A stretch of 31,628 nt of DNA from a virus. The number at the start of each line of letters is the position of its first letter. Positions within the stretch are counted from its first letter, which is position 1. Under the pieces are notes generated by a model. The model did not search any database. It saw only the letters and a list, made by a program, of their open reading frames with translations, and was not told where the DNA came from. Shown here one piece after another: positions 101 to 23,617 of the stretch. The position numbers were made by a program, and so were the translations under genes. The stretch is from positions 1-31,628 of the IMG/VR virus record IMGVR_UViG_3300031825_000056; one strand, 5' to 3'.

Positions 101-496
101 TCAGACCTCCAGGAATCGGAACGTGGGCGCCAGCAGCTCGCCGGCGTCTTGCTCGCCATCGAGCAGCGGCCACAGCGGCACGGCCGCGAAGCCGCCGCGG
201 GCGTGGTCGAAGATCACGGCGCGGGCGGTGCCGCGCAGGTTGAGGGTGAACTGGGTGCCGGCTTCGGCCGCCCACGCCTGCAAGGTGTCGCACACCGCGC
301 GCGTGATCCATGCGGCGGTGGCCGTGCCCTGCAGCGTGATGGGCCGGCCCGCCAGCTTGACGGCCACGTCCACCAGCAGCGCGCCGGTGGTGCTGTAGGC
401 GGTGGACTGCTCGATCGGGCTCCAGTCGAACTCGTCGGCCCATTCGAGCCGATCCGACAGCTCGATGGTGGTGGCGCCCTTGGTGAGGGTGATCAT
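101..496 (-). CDS. Phage tail-associated protein, 131 aa, unknown function
   Basis: 131-residue protein whose ATG overlaps the stop codon of the tape measure gene (ATGA), so translation is probably coupled. It has no signal peptide or membrane helix and a mixed alpha/beta composition with many aromatic residues. Placed directly after the tape measure protein, it probably belongs to the distal tail or tail-tip assembly of a long-tailed Mu-like phage. I recognise no catalytic motif. The function is inferred from position only. Confidence 0.65.
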   Translation of the reverse strand: MITLTKGATTIELSDRLEWADEFDWSPIEQSTAYSTTGALLVDVAVKLAGRPITLQGTATAAWITRAVCDTLQAWAAEAGTQFTLNLRGTARAVIFDHARGGFAAVPLWPLLDGEQDAGELLAPTFRFLEV

Positions 497-3400
497 ACGG
501 ACGCTCCCTTGGCGCGTGCCAGTTCGTCCAGCAGGCGCTGCAGCACCGCGTCACCGGCCGCGTCGGTGCGCACGGGACCCAGGGCCATGCCGTTCCAATT
601 GATGTTGACGGTGCGCGTCTGCTCGGGGATCGTGGAGGGCGCCGGCGCGCCGCGCACCGGGCCCAGAGGCGAGCCGGCACCGAAGGTGTAGCGCTCGGCG
701 GCCTTGAGCAGCGCCTGCGACATCGTCGAGTTCGCGCCGCCGTACTTGATCTGGCCGGGGTTGCTGAAGTACGGAATGTCGCCCTTGGCGTCCGCAAACT
801 CGCGGGCGATGTTGCGTGCGACCTTGTCGTCGGCGACGCCCGCGGCCTTGAGGAAGGCGGCGATGCCAGTCAACGTCGTGAGGTCACCCCCGGCGACCAA
901 GGTGTTGCCGTTCTTGTCCAGTGAGAAGCCGTTCTTGTCGACGTTCAGACGCTTGCGCTCTTCTTCGTCCTTGGCTTCCTTCGCCTCGCGCTCGCGCTTG
1001 GCTGCGGCATTCTGCTTTTCCTGGGCGGCGATCGCGCGCTCGGCGGCGCTGACTGCAGCGTCGCCGGCCTTGGTGTAGGCATCGCCGAGTTGGCCGACGG
1101 CGTTGATCCCTTCGCTCGCCGCCTTCACGGTGGTCTTCCCGGCGCTATCTACCTGGACCTCGTAGCCGCGTGCCGCGGCCTGGGCCTGCACCCAGGATGG
1201 CGCGATGCCATTGTTGGCCGCGATCGCGTCGTCGGCAGCCTTCTTGAAGGCGGCGCCCAGCTCGCGTGCCGAGGCAGTGCCGGCGGCCACCAAGTAGTCG
1301 TACGCCTGGCGGCTGGAGGCCGCCGTGCGCTTCATTGCTTCGTCGCTGGTGACGCCCAGCTGCTTCATCGCCTCGGCCACGCTGTTGATGCCGGGCGTGG
1401 CGGCGTCCAGGCCTTCCTTCAGCAGGCGTGCCTTCTCGCGCGCCTGATCCAGCAGACCATCGGTGATCTTGTCGCCCAGCTTGCTGCGCAGCTGCTCGAT
1501 GCGCTGCAGCACCAGGTCGATCGCCTGCTGGCTGTCGGCCGTGTTGATGGCCTTGCCCAGGCTGGCCGTGAGCGCACGGCCGGTGTCCACGCCCTGGGCC
1601 TTGAGCCGGTCCAGGCCGGCCACGATGGCCTCGACGTCGTTGATGGCACTGCGCGATGCCGCGCCCACTTTGCCCTGCAGCTGCTCGAACTCCAGCCCGG
1701 TGCGCTTGACCGCCTCGCGCACGGTGGCGTCCAGCAACTGTCCAAGCCGCTCGGCCTCACGGGCCGATCCCATGAAGGCCGCACGAGCCATCACTTCGAA
1801 CTGCGCCAGGTCCTTGCCTTCGAGCGCCTGCGCCCAGGCGGCTCGCACCTCACTGGCAGCCAGCTTGCCGGAGGCGGCCAGTTTGTCGAGCACCGCGCCC
1901 AGGTCACGGATGCCCTGCAGGCTGCCCAGGTCGAAGTCCTTGCCGATCTTGCCGATCGCGTCGGCCGCGCTCTCGCCCTTGGCTCGCAGTCCGTCGAACG
2001 CCGCGATCGCCGCCTGCGCACCCTTGCTCAGCTCGAACTGCTTGTCGATCGCGGCCTGCGTCTTGGCCGCCAGGGCCTGCCGATCGAGCGCGGCCTGCTT
2101 GGCGATCTCGCTGCTGGTCTGGTCGGCGCGGGCGATCTCGTCGCTGCGGTCCTTGTAGCCGACCAGTTTGGCGGCCGCCTCGCCGATCGCGCTGCCGATG
2201 TCCTTGAAGTTGGTGACGATACCCAGCAGCGTGAAGGTCTTGAGCCCGCTGAGGATGCTGGCGAAGCGGCCGACGTTGACCGCCGCGCCGCCGCCGGCCG
2301 CACCGGCGGCGTTCAGGGCCGCCGTGTTCGCCGCCACGGCCACCGCCGACTGCGCGGCGGCCGCGCCGATGCCGGCGAAGTGCTGCGCCAGCCTCAGGGC
2401 CGCAAACGCTGCCGCGGCCTGCCCGGCGTCGATCAGCAGGCCGGCGACCGTGTCCAGGTTCTCGGCCAGCGCGGCGATCGCGCCGGCCGCCAGCCGGCTC
2501 GCGCCGGTGGCCTTGTCTGCCTCACCGACGTACACCGTCCAGTTGGTCGACAGGTTTTCCAGGGCGCGGCCCACGGTCGGCGGCAGGGTCGAGAACTCGC
2601 GCTTCAAGGTGTCGGACTGCCCCTTGAGCGCGGCCATCACCGTGTCCGCGCTCAGCGAGCCGGCCTCGGCCATCTTGCGCAACTCGCCGGTGGTCACGCC
2701 CAGGCCGTCGGCCAGCGCCTTGGCCAGGCGCGGCGACTGCTCCATGACGCTGTTGAACTCGTCGCCGCGCAGCACGCCGCCTTGCAGGCCCTGGACCAGC
2801 TGCGTGACGGCGGCCCGGGCCGACTCGGCGCTGCCGCCAGACAGCTGGATCGCCTGGTTGATGGTCTCGGTCAGGCCCAGCGCCTGGCTGACGGCCGCCT
2901 GGGTGGAAAGCCCAGCGCTCTTGCCGGCCTCGGTCAGCTTGGCGAACAGCTGGCCCGTCTGCTCCAGGCTGGAGCTGGTGCGGGTGGAGATGTCCACCAC
3001 CTCGGCAAAGGCCGCGGTGAAAGCCTCACCCTCGCCGGTGGCCAGCTTGATGCGCGCCTGCAGGTTGTTGTAGGCGTCAGCCGTCTCCGCCACATCGGAC
3101 GCCATGGCGCCGAGCCCGCGCAAGCCCACCAGGACGGCATACAGGCGCTGCAGCTGGGCCAGCTGCTGGCTGATGGAGTTCACCCCTTCGCCGATCTGGC
3201 GATGGGTGCGGTTCATGGCGCCGCCGGCGGCCTGCGCGCCGGCGGCAGCTCCCTGGTAGGCCGGCGCGATCCCTTCGACCGACGCGCGCACCTGCGCCAC
3301 TTCCTGGCGCAGCCGCTGCTGCGCGGCCTGGGCGTTCTGCCCGGCGATGCCGTAGCGCTGCAGCTCGGCCTGGGCGCCGGCCAGCGCCTGCTTTTGCTGG

Positions 3401-3756
3401 TCGAAGGTGGCGCGCGCGCCGTCGGCCGCGGTGCGCAGCCGCTGCAGGTTCGCCGCTTCCTGCGCGGTGGGCGGGCCGGCCGCGCCAATCTGCCTGGCGT
3501 AGTTGGCCGCTTCCGTTTCGGCGGCCTTCAGCGCCCGGCCGGCGTCCCGGGCTTGCGTCTGCAGGCGGCTGAAGGCGGTAATCGCCGCATCCTGCGCGGC
3601 CAGCTCGCGCAGCCGGGCGGCGGCGGCCTTGGCCTGCTGGCTCAGCTCGCCCCCGAGGACCTTGGCGACATCGTCCAGATCGTCGGCCAGGCCGGTGACG
3701 GAATCGCGTCCCTGAACGTCGGCCCTGATCTCGTACCTGACTTGCTTGTCTGCCAC
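493..3756 (-). CDS. Tape measure protein
   Basis: 1087-residue protein, the largest in the window. The first ~190 residues are Ala/Gln-rich coiled coil. Residues ~215-420 form the conserved phage tape-measure domain (NNLQARIKLATGEGEAF, then GGVLRGDEFNSVMEQSPRLA, then AGSLSADTVMAAL). A hydrophobic Ala/Gly-rich stretch follows around 430-520, with further coiled coil towards the C-terminus. Tape measure proteins set tail length and are threaded through the tail lumen; at about 0.15 nm per residue this predicts a tail near 160 nm. Its position downstream of the tail tube gene fits. The gene between tube and tape measure, normally a tail assembly chaperone, was not found. Confidence 0.93.
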   Translation of the reverse strand: MADKQVRYEIRADVQGRDSVTGLADDLDDVAKVLGGELSQQAKAAAARLRELAAQDAAITAFSRLQTQARDAGRALKAAETEAANYARQIGAAGPPTAQEAANLQRLRTAADGARATFDQQKQALAGAQAELQRYGIAGQNAQAAQQRLRQEVAQVRASVEGIAPAYQGAAAGAQAAGGAMNRTHRQIGEGVNSISQQLAQLQRLYAVLVGLRGLGAMASDVAETADAYNNLQARIKLATGEGEAFTAAFAEVVDISTRTSSSLEQTGQLFAKLTEAGKSAGLSTQAAVSQALGLTETINQAIQLSGGSAESARAAVTQLVQGLQGGVLRGDEFNSVMEQSPRLAKALADGLGVTTGELRKMAEAGSLSADTVMAALKGQSDTLKREFSTLPPTVGRALENLSTNWTVYVGEADKATGASRLAAGAIAALAENLDTVAGLLIDAGQAAAAFAALRLAQHFAGIGAAAAQSAVAVAANTAALNAAGAAGGGAAVNVGRFASILSGLKTFTLLGIVTNFKDIGSAIGEAAAKLVGYKDRSDEIARADQTSSEIAKQAALDRQALAAKTQAAIDKQFELSKGAQAAIAAFDGLRAKGESAADAIGKIGKDFDLGSLQGIRDLGAVLDKLAASGKLAASEVRAAWAQALEGKDLAQFEVMARAAFMGSAREAERLGQLLDATVREAVKRTGLEFEQLQGKVGAASRSAINDVEAIVAGLDRLKAQGVDTGRALTASLGKAINTADSQQAIDLVLQRIEQLRSKLGDKITDGLLDQAREKARLLKEGLDAATPGINSVAEAMKQLGVTSDEAMKRTAASSRQAYDYLVAAGTASARELGAAFKKAADDAIAANNGIAPSWVQAQAAARGYEVQVDSAGKTTVKAASEGINAVGQLGDAYTKAGDAAVSAAERAIAAQEKQNAAAKREREAKEAKDEEERKRLNVDKNGFSLDKNGNTLVAGGDLTTLTGIAAFLKAAGVADDKVARNIAREFADAKGDIPYFSNPGQIKYGGANSTMSQALLKAAERYTFGAGSPLGPVRGAPAPSTIPEQTRTVNINWNGMALGPVRTDAAGDAVLQRLLDELARAKGASV

Positions 3757-3771
3757 GGTGCTTCCTACAAT
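3742..3771 (+). promoter_or_regulatory. Candidate promoter of the 52-aa membrane protein gene
   Basis: TTGCTT at 3742-3747 and TACAAT at 3766-3771 are separated by 18 bp, a plausible sigma70 promoter reading rightward, opposite to the surrounding tail operon. The expected start site (about 7 nt after the -10 box) falls on or next to the ATG at 3778, and no Shine-Dalgarno sequence precedes that ATG. A leaderless transcript is therefore likely. The -35 box lies inside the first codons of the tape measure gene. Confidence 0.5.
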
Positions 3772-3777
3772 GGACGT

Positions 3778-3936
3778 ATGCCGCGCCTGATCGCCTTCCT
3801 CCTGTGCATCGCCTTCCTGTTCGCCGCGGGCGGTTTCGTGCAGGCCGGCATGGCGCTGGCGGCCGCCGGTGCGCTATCGCTCGCCGGCTACCTGGTCTGG
3901 GGCCTCGTGCGCCTGTTCATCGGCCCGGCGCGATAG
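3778..3936 (+). CDS. 52-aa double-transmembrane protein, moron-like
   Basis: Short gene on the strand opposite to the tail operon, lying between the tape measure (starts 3756) and tail tube (ends 3964) genes. The product has two hydrophobic segments, residues ~4-19 and ~22-45 (FLLCIAFLFAAGGF and LAAAGALSLAGYLVWGLV), and a short basic C-terminus. It has its own candidate promoter and is followed at once by a 9-bp perfect stem-loop. That is the promoter-gene-hairpin layout of a moron (lysogeny-expressed cargo gene). The function is unknown; a superinfection-exclusion or envelope role is only a guess. Lack of a ribosome binding site and small size leave some doubt that it is translated. Confidence 0.5.
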   Translation: MPRLIAFLLCIAFLFAAGGFVQAGMALAAAGALSLAGYLVWGLVRLFIGPAR

Positions 3937-3958
3937 CCGCCTGGTCGGCCCAGGCGGC
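3936..3958. terminator. Perfect stem-loop between convergent genes
   Basis: GCCGCCTGG (3936-3944) and CCAGGCGGC (3950-3958) form a perfect 9-bp stem with a 5-nt loop. It lies between the stop codon of the 52-aa plus-strand gene and the stop codon of the minus-strand tail tube gene. No U-run follows on either strand, so it is terminator-like rather than a clear intrinsic terminator. It could also protect the 3' end of the tail tube message. Confidence 0.5.
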
Positions 3959-3963
3959 CGGCC

Positions 3964-4704
3964 TTACACCATCTGGGCGCGGTAGAAGCGGCTGATGCCC
4001 ACGCCGCTCTTGGTCGGGTCCACCAGCACCTCGCCCTCGATCTCCAGCGAGCCGAAGTCCGTCTGAATGAGCGCCAGCGTCTTGGCGATGCCAGCGCCCA
4101 GGCGCCACACGTCCACGATCACCGGCTTGCCGCTGTCGGCCTCGTTCAGGCCGCCGAAGCTCAGCTCGAGCTCGGGTGCCGCGCTGGTGAGCGCCTCGAT
4201 GTTCACGTGCTCCGGGTGCGTGTAGCTCACCGTCAGCGCGTCCGCGTCCACGATGGTGGACGACTCGGGGATGAAGATGCCCTCCGCGCGCACTTCGTAG
4301 TTGGCCGGGTCCACCGCCACGGCGGCCTTCTTCACCGTCACCAGCGTCGGCCCGGGGTTGGCCAGGCGGATCAGCCCGCCCTTGTACGCCACCACCGGCT
4401 CGTCGACCACGGCCGCGCCGGCCACCGTGGCGGCGACGCCGAACACCGCCCGGGTGAAGTTGACCGGGTTCCAGTCGGCCAGCTCCATCTTCAGGTTCAC
4501 GCCGTTGATGCGCCGCGTCTGGGCATAGGTGCCGCCGCCCAGCCGCGTCATGTCCGGCTGCTTCTTGACTTCCTCGTCGTGCGACAGCTCCAGCACCAGG
4601 GCGTTGCCCACCGGCACCCGCGGCGCGGCGGCCACGCCGTAGGGGCGCGCGTAGACCTGGCCGACCAGCTGGATCGGCTTGTAGATTTGCTTGATGAGGG
4701 CCAT
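3964..4704 (-). CDS. Major tail tube protein
   Basis: 246-residue protein without membrane segments, rich in beta-type sequence, with an Ig-like/tube-fold style (AYKGGLIRLANPG, EGIFIPESSTIVDADAL, IVDVWRLGAG). GGAG lies 8 nt before the ATG. It lies between gp37 and the tape measure gene, the usual place for the tail tube protein. No sheath gene is present, so a non-contractile tail is expected. It polymerises around the tape measure protein to form the tail shaft. The call rests on position, size and composition; I see no diagnostic motif. Confidence 0.7.
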   Translation of the reverse strand: MALIKQIYKPIQLVGQVYARPYGVAAAPRVPVGNALVLELSHDEEVKKQPDMTRLGGGTYAQTRRINGVNLKMELADWNPVNFTRAVFGVAATVAGAAVVDEPVVAYKGGLIRLANPGPTLVTVKKAAVAVDPANYEVRAEGIFIPESSTIVDADALTVSYTHPEHVNIEALTSAAPELELSFGGLNEADSGKPVIVDVWRLGAGIAKTLALIQTDFGSLEIEGEVLVDPTKSGVGISRFYRAQMV

Positions 4705-21239: not shown

Positions 21240-21413
21240 ATGACGAACCCCAAGGCGCCACCACCACCACCACCGCCGCCACCTCCTCCGCCGCCGCCAC
21301 CACCGCCGCCACCCGCGCCGCGGCCGGATGCAGGCCACCGCGAGTTCAGTGAACGCTCGGACAACACAGTCTATTTCTCCCCACCGCCACCGCCACCGCC
21401 CAAGCCAAAGTAG
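21240..21413 (+). CDS. Polyproline microprotein, 57 aa
   Basis: 57 residues: MTNPKA, then 19 consecutive prolines, a short charged stretch (GHREFSERSDNTVYFS), then 7 prolines and KPK. The ribosome binding site is excellent (GAGGAG, 8 nt before the ATG). Mixed CCA/CCG/CCT/CCC codons argue against simple slippage-derived repeat DNA. Such a run stalls ribosomes unless EF-P is active, so expression should depend on EF-P. The rod-like polyproline helix could act as a spacer or binding ligand. I recognise no family. Confidence 0.65.
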   Translation: MTNPKAPPPPPPPPPPPPPPPPPPPAPRPDAGHREFSERSDNTVYFSPPPPPPPKPK

Positions 21414-22025: not shown

Positions 22026-22391
22026 ATGAAGCTCAACGATTCGATCCCGATCTGGCTGCGCGCTCCGCGCAACTCCCTCTGGCTGGCTGCGGCCCTCGTG
22101 CTGCTGGCGCTGATCGCTGCGATCTCGCCGGTGCAGCTGCCGGTGGTGGCGTACAAGGCAGCACTGATCGCGCTGGCGGCCGTGCTGGGCTACTGGCTGG
22201 ACCGCGCGCTCTTTCCCTACGCGCGTCCTGACGGCTACCTGGTGCGCGACTGGCGCCACGGCACGACTGCGCCGACAGGTGATGCCGACTTCCCGGTGGT
22301 GCCGGCCTACCTGCAGGTGTTCTGCCACGCGATGCTGCGCCGCGCGATCGTGATCGCCGCGGTGGTGGTGGGCGTGGCGCTGGGGCTGTGA
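22026..22391 (+). CDS. Putative 2/3TM holin
   Basis: 121 residues with three hydrophobic segments (~18-35 LWLAAALVLLALIAAIS; ~40-57 AYKAALIALAAVLGYWLD; ~104-121 RRAIVIAAVVVGVALGL) and a soluble loop between the second and third. The sequence fits the 'putative 2/3TM holin' family of Mu-like phages (GYWLDRALFPYARP). It would form inner-membrane lesions at lysis and lies directly upstream of the endolysin gene, whose ATG overlaps its stop (TGATG). No clear ribosome binding site precedes it. Confidence 0.8.
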   Translation: MKLNDSIPIWLRAPRNSLWLAAALVLLALIAAISPVQLPVVAYKAALIALAAVLGYWLDRALFPYARPDGYLVRDWRHGTTAPTGDADFPVVPAYLQVFCHAMLRRAIVIAAVVVGVALGL

Positions 22392-23098
22392 TGCTCAGGC
22401 GCGCGCTGCAGGACTTGGTGCTCGCGGTCGCGTCCGTGGTGCTTTGCCTCGGGCTGGCCTTCGCGCTGCCTGGCTGCAAGCAGCAGGCCGAACCGCCGGC
22501 CGCAGCCGCAGCCGGGGTGACGGCGGACCCAAGGCCGCAGCCGACGCCGGCGGCTGCGCCGCAGGCAGGGCCGGTTCCACGCGCGGCGCTGGCCTATCGC
22601 GCCGACCTCACGCGCACGGCGCGCGCCGTGTGGGGCCTGGATGCGCCGGTGCCCGCGTTCGCGGCGCAGGTGCACCAGGAATCGGGCTGGAACGCGCAGG
22701 CGGTGTCGCGCGTGGGCGCGGTCGGCCTGGCGCAATTCATGCCGGCCACCAGCCGCTGGATCGGGGACATCGATCCGCAGTTGCGCAGCAACCAGCCGTT
22801 CAGCCCGGGCTGGGCCTTGCGCGCGCTGGTGACCTACGACCTGTGGCTGTTCGATCGCACACCCCTGGCCTACGCCGAGCGTGACCGGTTCTGGGTGGCG
22901 CTGCGGGCCTACAACGGCGGACTCGGGCACTGGCAGGCGGAGGCGCGCAAGGCTGCAGGCGCCAGCCGCCAGGATGTGGATGCCGCCTGCGGCACCGCCA
23001 AGCGCGCGCGCGCCCATTGCCGCGAGAACCTGGACTACCCGCACCGCATCCTGGTGCTGCTGCAGCCGCGCTATGCGGCCTGGGGCCGCACGGTATGA
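22391..23098 (+). CDS. Transglycosylase-type endolysin
   Basis: 235 residues. An N-terminal hydrophobic segment (residues ~9-28, LVLAVASVVLCLGLAFALPG) ends in LPGC, a poor lipobox, so it may be a membrane-anchored (signal-anchor) or lipoprotein form. A Pro/Ala linker spans ~31-65. The SLT-type lytic domain follows: catalytic E97 in HQESGWNAQA, GLAQFMPAT (112-120) and AYNGG (173-177). It cleaves peptidoglycan glycosidic bonds in the periplasm. It lies between holin and spanin genes. Confidence 0.88.
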   Translation: MLRRALQDLVLAVASVVLCLGLAFALPGCKQQAEPPAAAAAGVTADPRPQPTPAAAPQAGPVPRAALAYRADLTRTARAVWGLDAPVPAFAAQVHQESGWNAQAVSRVGAVGLAQFMPATSRWIGDIDPQLRSNQPFSPGWALRALVTYDLWLFDRTPLAYAERDRFWVALRAYNGGLGHWQAEARKAAGASRQDVDAACGTAKRARAHCRENLDYPHRILVLLQPRYAAWGRTV

Positions 23099-23511
23099 GC
23101 CGCGCGATGCTGGCACTGGCCGCCTTGACGGCCTGCCTGGCCGGAACGGTGGGCGGCTACTGGTACGGCCACGACCAGGGCGTGTTGGCCGAGTCGGCGC
23201 GGCGCGACGGCCGGGCGGTGAAAGATCTGGGCGCACTGATCGAGTCGCACAAGGGGTTGATCCGTCAGGCCGCCGCCGCCAGCAAGGCGATGCGCACGGC
23301 CGTCGCCCGCCGGGCCGCGCAAGACGCGCAAAGCACTCAGGAGATCAGGGATGCGCTCACCGCTACTGCTGCCAGCCGCGATGGCTGCGTGTTTCCTGCT
23401 GGCGTCATGCGCCAGCTCGCCGACGCCCGTGAGCGCGCCGCCCAGGCCGCTGCCGGCGGAGTACGCGGTGCGTTGCCCGGCGCCAGCAGCAGCGCCGCCC
23501 CTGACCGGTGA
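23095..23511 (+). CDS. Rz-like inner-membrane spanin subunit
   Basis: 138 residues. The N-terminal membrane anchor (MLALAALTACLAGTVGGYWY) is followed by a helical periplasmic part (SKAMRTAVARRAAQDAQSTQ, MRQLADARERAAQAAA). The ATG overlaps the endolysin stop. The Rz1-like gene starts inside it in another frame. Together the two would span the periplasm and fuse inner and outer membranes at the last step of lysis. Sequence conservation in this family is low; the call rests on topology and gene nesting. Confidence 0.8.
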   Translation: MSRAMLALAALTACLAGTVGGYWYGHDQGVLAESARRDGRAVKDLGALIESHKGLIRQAAAASKAMRTAVARRAAQDAQSTQEIRDALTATAASRDGCVFPAGVMRQLADARERAAQAAAGGVRGALPGASSSAAPDR

Positions 23512-23617
23512 GGTTGACCCGGTGGCTGCGGCGCTCAAGGAACTCTATGACCTGTACGGCCTGTGCGCGGGCCGGCTGGTCGACCTGTTGGACTGGATCG
23601 ACGGAGGGCAGCAGTGA
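23351..23617 (+). CDS. Rz1-like outer-membrane spanin lipoprotein
   Basis: 88 residues, starting inside the Rz-like gene in a different frame and ending 106 bp beyond it. It has a signal peptide with a good lipobox (LLASC, C20) and a Pro-rich mature N-terminus (SPTPVSAPPRPLP), both typical of Rz1. Its C-terminal extension (LKELYDLYGLCAGRLVDLLD) is longer than in lambda Rz1. It is lipid-anchored in the outer membrane and contacts Rz. Confidence 0.82.
   Translation: MRSPLLLPAAMAACFLLASCASSPTPVSAPPRPLPAEYAVRCPAPAAAPPLTGEVDPVAAALKELYDLYGLCAGRLVDLLDWIDGGQQ

Follow-up and report, generated by a model that had tools for sequence, protein, structure and literature searches.

A conserved antisense gene for a small hydrophobic protein beside the tape measure gene of a Mu-like siphophage

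A Mu-like siphophage carries a 52-codon gene between its major tail (tube) and tape measure genes, on the strand opposite to both, and conservation in relatives makes it virtually certain that this is a real gene. We propose that the gene is read from a leaderless message, is expressed in the lysogen as a moron and acts by superinfection exclusion; to this reading, taken whole, we give a probability of about 0.5. The window analysed is the entire 31.6-kb record IMGVR_UViG_3300031825_000056 (31,628 nucleotides), which carries Mu-like genes (transposase A and B, ner-like, gemA and Gp36) and genes for a major tail protein with an Ig-like domain and a TMP_3 tape measure protein. The small gene lies on the plus strand, antisense to both neighbours, inside the 207-bp gap that separates them (Table 1). 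Gene order across positions 493–29576 is unusual for a Mu-like phage: protease, capsid, tail and early genes point leftward, and the lysis genes and the terminase–portal–minor head genes point rightward. Misassembly was ruled out as the source of this arrangement because a relative (G006) shows the identical order.

Table 1 Features in and around the gap between the tube and tape measure genes
Feature	Positions	Strand	Remarks
Tape measure gene	493–3756	−	PF20155 (Pfam) and PHROG tape measure
−35-like TTGCTT	3742–3747	+	Weak; inside the tape measure gene, in K-Q codons
−10 box TACAAT (putative)	3766–3771	+	Adjoins the antisense tape measure ribosome-binding site; TANNNT kept in relatives
Antisense gene, 52-aa hydrophobic membrane protein (two helices predicted)	3778–3936	+	Same-slot homologues; pN/pS below 1
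Hairpin, 9-bp perfect stem, 5-nt loop	3936–3958		No T-run; GCCGCCTGG-TCGGC-CCAGGCGGC
Major tail (tube) gene	3964–4704	−	phrog_807

A conserved gene in the gap

The frame opens with an ATG at 3778 and closes with a stop codon at 3934–3936. On re-reading the sequence, the positions that an earlier, sequence-only reading had assigned to the frame, its ATG, the promoter-like site and the hairpin proved correct. The product has a GRAVY of 1.54, the highest among 331 ORF ends of equal length drawn from the six frames of the window (mean −0.61, s.d. 0.64). The 52 codons make up the last part of a GC-rich frame that stays open for 948 amino acids antisense to the tape measure gene; openness alone is therefore no proof of a gene, and the proof is supplied by relatives.

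A search with the N-terminal 112 residues of the tape measure protein retrieved 14 relatives, found in viral contigs and in bacterial genomes; some of the viral records are the same prophages as bacterial-genome matches. The hosts are Acidovorax sp., Paracidovorax citrulli, A. facilis and Paenacidovorax caeni. The sequence-only reading had staked the small frame on its conservation in relatives, and all 14 keep a homologue of 46–52 amino acids in the same slot and on the same strand, with 43–63% identity. Residues M1, R3, F7, C10, A12, L14, A17, G18, G24, A26 and L35 are conserved in the alignment. Values of pN/pS were 0.17–0.44 in 13 of the 14 pairs compared, indicating purifying selection; the exceptional pair (0.79) consists of nearly identical sequences and its value is based on three changes.

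Divergent homologues came from profile searches of 401 genomes of the Acidovorax family and of additional viral contigs; they occur in other prophages of this family, several of them beside different types of tape measure gene. One carrier of a homologue is Acidovorax facilis DSM 649 (L028). No match was obtained when the region (blastn) and the small protein (tblastn) were compared with deposited phage genomes, and in order-wide and class-wide samples (399 and 369 genomes, with some candidates per genome scored) only the Acidovorax genome already known was matched. The pattern TTCCTACAAT-N5-7-ATGC returned at least 120 matches over viral contigs, and among the matches listed most are unrelated as judged by their contigs; an alignment of the family (A3) was too diverse to serve for a contig scan.

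The small-protein family matches no library family in Pfam or PHROGs. Scans of 14 members against both gave chance-level matches only, none to a defence or exclusion family, and the sole holin match, from a single member, was weak (E = 0.072). The description of the product as a two-helix hydrophobic protein stood in its hydrophobicity, whereas the AlphaFold model, of moderate confidence, is one continuous helix over residues 3–47 (pLDDT 82, pTM 0.35), a shape that would match anything in a fold search. From R3, the basic residues at the C terminus, the glycine-rich middle and the length of the protein, we infer two helices folded into a hairpin, with both termini on the inner side.

A putative promoter at a fixed distance from the start codon

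Upstream of the gene, TTGCTT is followed by an 18-nt spacer, TACAAT and, after 6 nt, the ATG. Of the two halves of this promoter-like site, relatives bear out the −10 box. Among 16 non-redundant members of the small-gene family, 15 have TANNNT separated from the ATG by exactly 6 nt, and the motif was missing from all 39 other offsets examined in the same members. The hexamers at −12 to −7 are TACAAT, TAAAAT, TAGAAT, TAGAGT, TACCAT or CACAAT, and the distance to the ATG is fixed even where the −10 sequence and its surroundings differ. The −35 half is weak: TTGCTT matches the consensus at only three of six positions, and a consensus promoter scan of the window did not call TTGCTT-18-TACAAT. Close relatives have TTGCNT at a spacing of 16–18 nt, which is not clear in divergent members. 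We thus regard the gene as having its own putative promoter, recognized by a conserved −10 box at fixed spacing.

A −10 box at −12 to −7 places the predicted start of transcription on the A of the ATG. The suggestion of a message without a ribosome-binding site also held: between −20 and −4 of the window gene, the search for a Shine–Dalgarno sequence found nothing above 3 nt, and family members have at most chance matches of 3–4 nt. Five members (L024, L164, L165, L168 and L199) have an in-frame stop one to four codons upstream of the ATG and no ATG, GTG or TTG in between, so the ATG must be their start; in the last four of these the stop is part of the −10 box itself. The message is therefore very probably leaderless, an inference from the earlier reading that the near-invariant spacing strengthens. 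The same spacing makes the family a natural set of more than 12 candidate leaderless promoters.

The putative antisense promoter is intertwined with the translation start of the tape measure gene, both its ribosome-binding site and its start codon. The conserved ATTGTA adjoins that ribosome-binding site and lies mostly outside it, so the site does not explain the conservation of ATTGTA. A second, regulatory copy of the conserved block CTGTCTCGCGCGA was sought in the prophage of one relative, where the block proved to be single-copy.

Probable cargo gene, hairpin and other occupants of the slot

The presence and absence of the gene among relatives fit a moron. The proposal that it was inserted as cargo agrees with the comparison of L199, which has the gene, and L003, which has a short gap without it, despite tube proteins that are 77% identical and tape measure proteins that are 70% identical. 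The gap is empty of any such gene in three further relatives (L184, L186 and L188), holds different antisense hydrophobic frames in six (L185, L189 and L190; L005, L010 and L012) and contains same-strand genes in Fc02 (two genes) and HXX_Dennis. Taken with the putative promoter, these patterns make it likely that the gene is a lysogen-expressed moron.

The antisense frames of L005 (3242–3574), L010 (5708–6034) and L012 (3519–3845) are apparently unrelated to the small gene, encode approximately 108 amino acids and have pN/pS below 1. The frame upstream of the tape measure gene in L189 and L190 is likewise apparently unrelated and has pN/pS below 1; it has a Shine–Dalgarno-like start, and a promoter-like TTGACA-17-TTTGAT lies inside the tape measure gene.

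It had been supposed that the slot is normally that of a tail assembly chaperone gene. This is true of HXX_Dennis and perhaps of Fc02, but not of Shewanella phage 1/44 or Vibrio phage 1.083, which have no chaperone gene in this interval; absence of a chaperone is thus not peculiar to this insertion. In the window, all three late-strand frames across the small gene are interrupted by stops, leaving no late-strand chaperone frame.

The earlier reading counted the hairpin as part of the moron layout. Its perfect 9-bp stem is borne out; in relatives the better U-run is mostly on the late strand. The window hairpin lacks a T-run on both sides and is consequently not a classic intrinsic terminator. 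Relatives carry different hairpins at the same place, often with T-runs and several of them strong (in L016, a 12-bp AATAAGGCCGAC stem with a fold z of about −5). In most relatives the longer T-run is 3′ of the stem on the late strand, for example ...GTCGGCCTTATTTTTTTG, and hairpins are absent or poor in L164, L165, L167 and L183. We would describe the element at best as a terminator working in both directions, or as an attenuator placed between the tube and tape measure genes; the name of moron terminator alone fits it less well. In L016, L019, L024, L025, L163 and L194, the better U-run between the small-gene stop and the tube stop is on the late strand; these six hairpins are likely late-strand terminators or attenuators, past which the tape measure and distal tail genes must be transcribed.

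Candidate functions and known systems

We suggest that the 52-residue protein would lodge in the lysogen's inner membrane and block genome entry by incoming phages in the manner of HK97 gp15, probably by hindering a step that depends on the tape measure protein. Exclusion is favoured because the slot beside the tape measure gene matches that of HK97 gp15. The same anatomy would serve a moron that is expressed in the lysogen but helps host or phage by other means, such as through membrane stress or a change in surface or signalling, and one homologue (L166/L201; 6173–6328 of L201, G205) lies outside any tail operon, approximately 1 kb after an MmeI-like methyltransferase gene; its stop overlaps the point where another hydrophobic frame, of 47 aa, begins, which is followed by a helix-turn-helix-like frame. 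Against such a benefit stand the gp15-like slot and the recurring antisense hydrophobic frames within it, which fit a role in tails or entry better, and we consider it possible but not probable.

Regulation of tape measure expression by the antisense transcription unit, with the peptide secondary, would make sense of a promoter lying across the translation start of the tape measure gene (ribosome-binding site and start codon), of the interlocked units and of a hairpin U-run that is often on the late strand. The transcript, however, would start upstream of that ribosome-binding site and leave the tape measure gene behind it, pairing with neither the start region nor the coding part, and selection at the codon level points to a protein; we regard this explanation as unlikely. 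A holin, antiholin or other late lysis protein is very unlikely: the size and hydrophobicity resemble those of small holins, but a separate, complete lysis cassette (a Holin_2-3 gene, an SLT transglycosylase gene and an Rz1-like gene) occupies 22026–23617, and late transcription would oppose a gene that lies on the strand opposite the late operon. A short way ahead of this cassette, at 21240–21413, is a 57-aa frame that contains a long stretch of prolines. Size and hydrophobicity would also suit a type I toxin-like or otherwise inhibitory peptide acting in addiction or abortive infection, but no antitoxin or counter-RNA was recognized and the cell would need to tolerate a peptide made from a seemingly constitutive promoter, which renders this idea highly improbable. 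A chance open frame in GC-rich DNA, consistent with the 948-aa antisense frame and the missing promoter call, is contradicted by the conservation, the selection and the fixed −10 spacing in relatives, and its likelihood is negligible.

More speculatively, and with low confidence in the whole, the tube–tape measure interval may be reserved for small membrane proteins that are encoded antisense, made from the prophage and directed at entry by phages whose tape measure proteins are of particular kinds. Several families would have used it (the leaderless family and the types seen in L189/L190 and L005/L010/L012), and expression of the leaderless family inside a late operon would need a fixed leaderless promoter intertwined with the ribosome-binding site of the tape measure gene. 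Small antisense genes in tail operons are easily missed in annotation, and the present one is a clear case with a strong evolutionary signature. If exclusion through a tape measure step is true, the protein would offer an independent, short means of studying the opening of the inner membrane by tape measure proteins.

The closest parallel in working is HK97 gp15, for which we drew on GenBank annotation and PMC10883804. By that paper's account, gp15 is a proven exclusion moron product that blocks DNA injection, and HK97 hybrids with the tube and tape measure genes of HK022 escape it (PMC10883804). Like the small gene, the gp15 gene encodes a tiny membrane protein (of 62 aa in gp15), adjoins the tape measure gene on its 5′ side and belongs to a temperate siphophage. 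The gp15 gene has its own terminator. It differs in lying on the tail-gene strand, in having a Shine–Dalgarno sequence and in encoding one evident hydrophobic segment with a polar tail. The two proteins have no sequence homology (hhalign probability 0.3%), so our claim is that the small protein may work like gp15, not that it is a gp15. HK97 gp23, annotated as a 'reverse moron product', is also cargo on the strand opposite the tail operon; it lies elsewhere and partly overlaps gp22, and the comparison covers annotation and strand. The cI message transcribed from PRM in phage lambda is leaderless, is expressed from the prophage and starts at its AUG, but cI is a repressor, neither a membrane protein nor antisense in a tail operon.

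P22 SieA, TP-J34 Ltp and Tuc2009 Sie2009 are membrane-associated prophage proteins that block DNA injection, and Ltp is overcome by changes in the tape measure protein (PMC10883804); their resemblance to the small protein is one of described function. Fc02 and other B3-like phages, also Mu-like siphophages, carry small exclusion genes (olg1/sie1 and gene 10), of which olg1 is transcribed in the lysogen (PMC9936078); these are located in the lysis–lysogeny control region. Morons, reverse morons such as HK97 gp23 and leaderless prophage messages are thus already known. What is new is the combination, beside a tape measure gene, of a probable reverse moron with a putatively leaderless message in a conserved family that has no library match.
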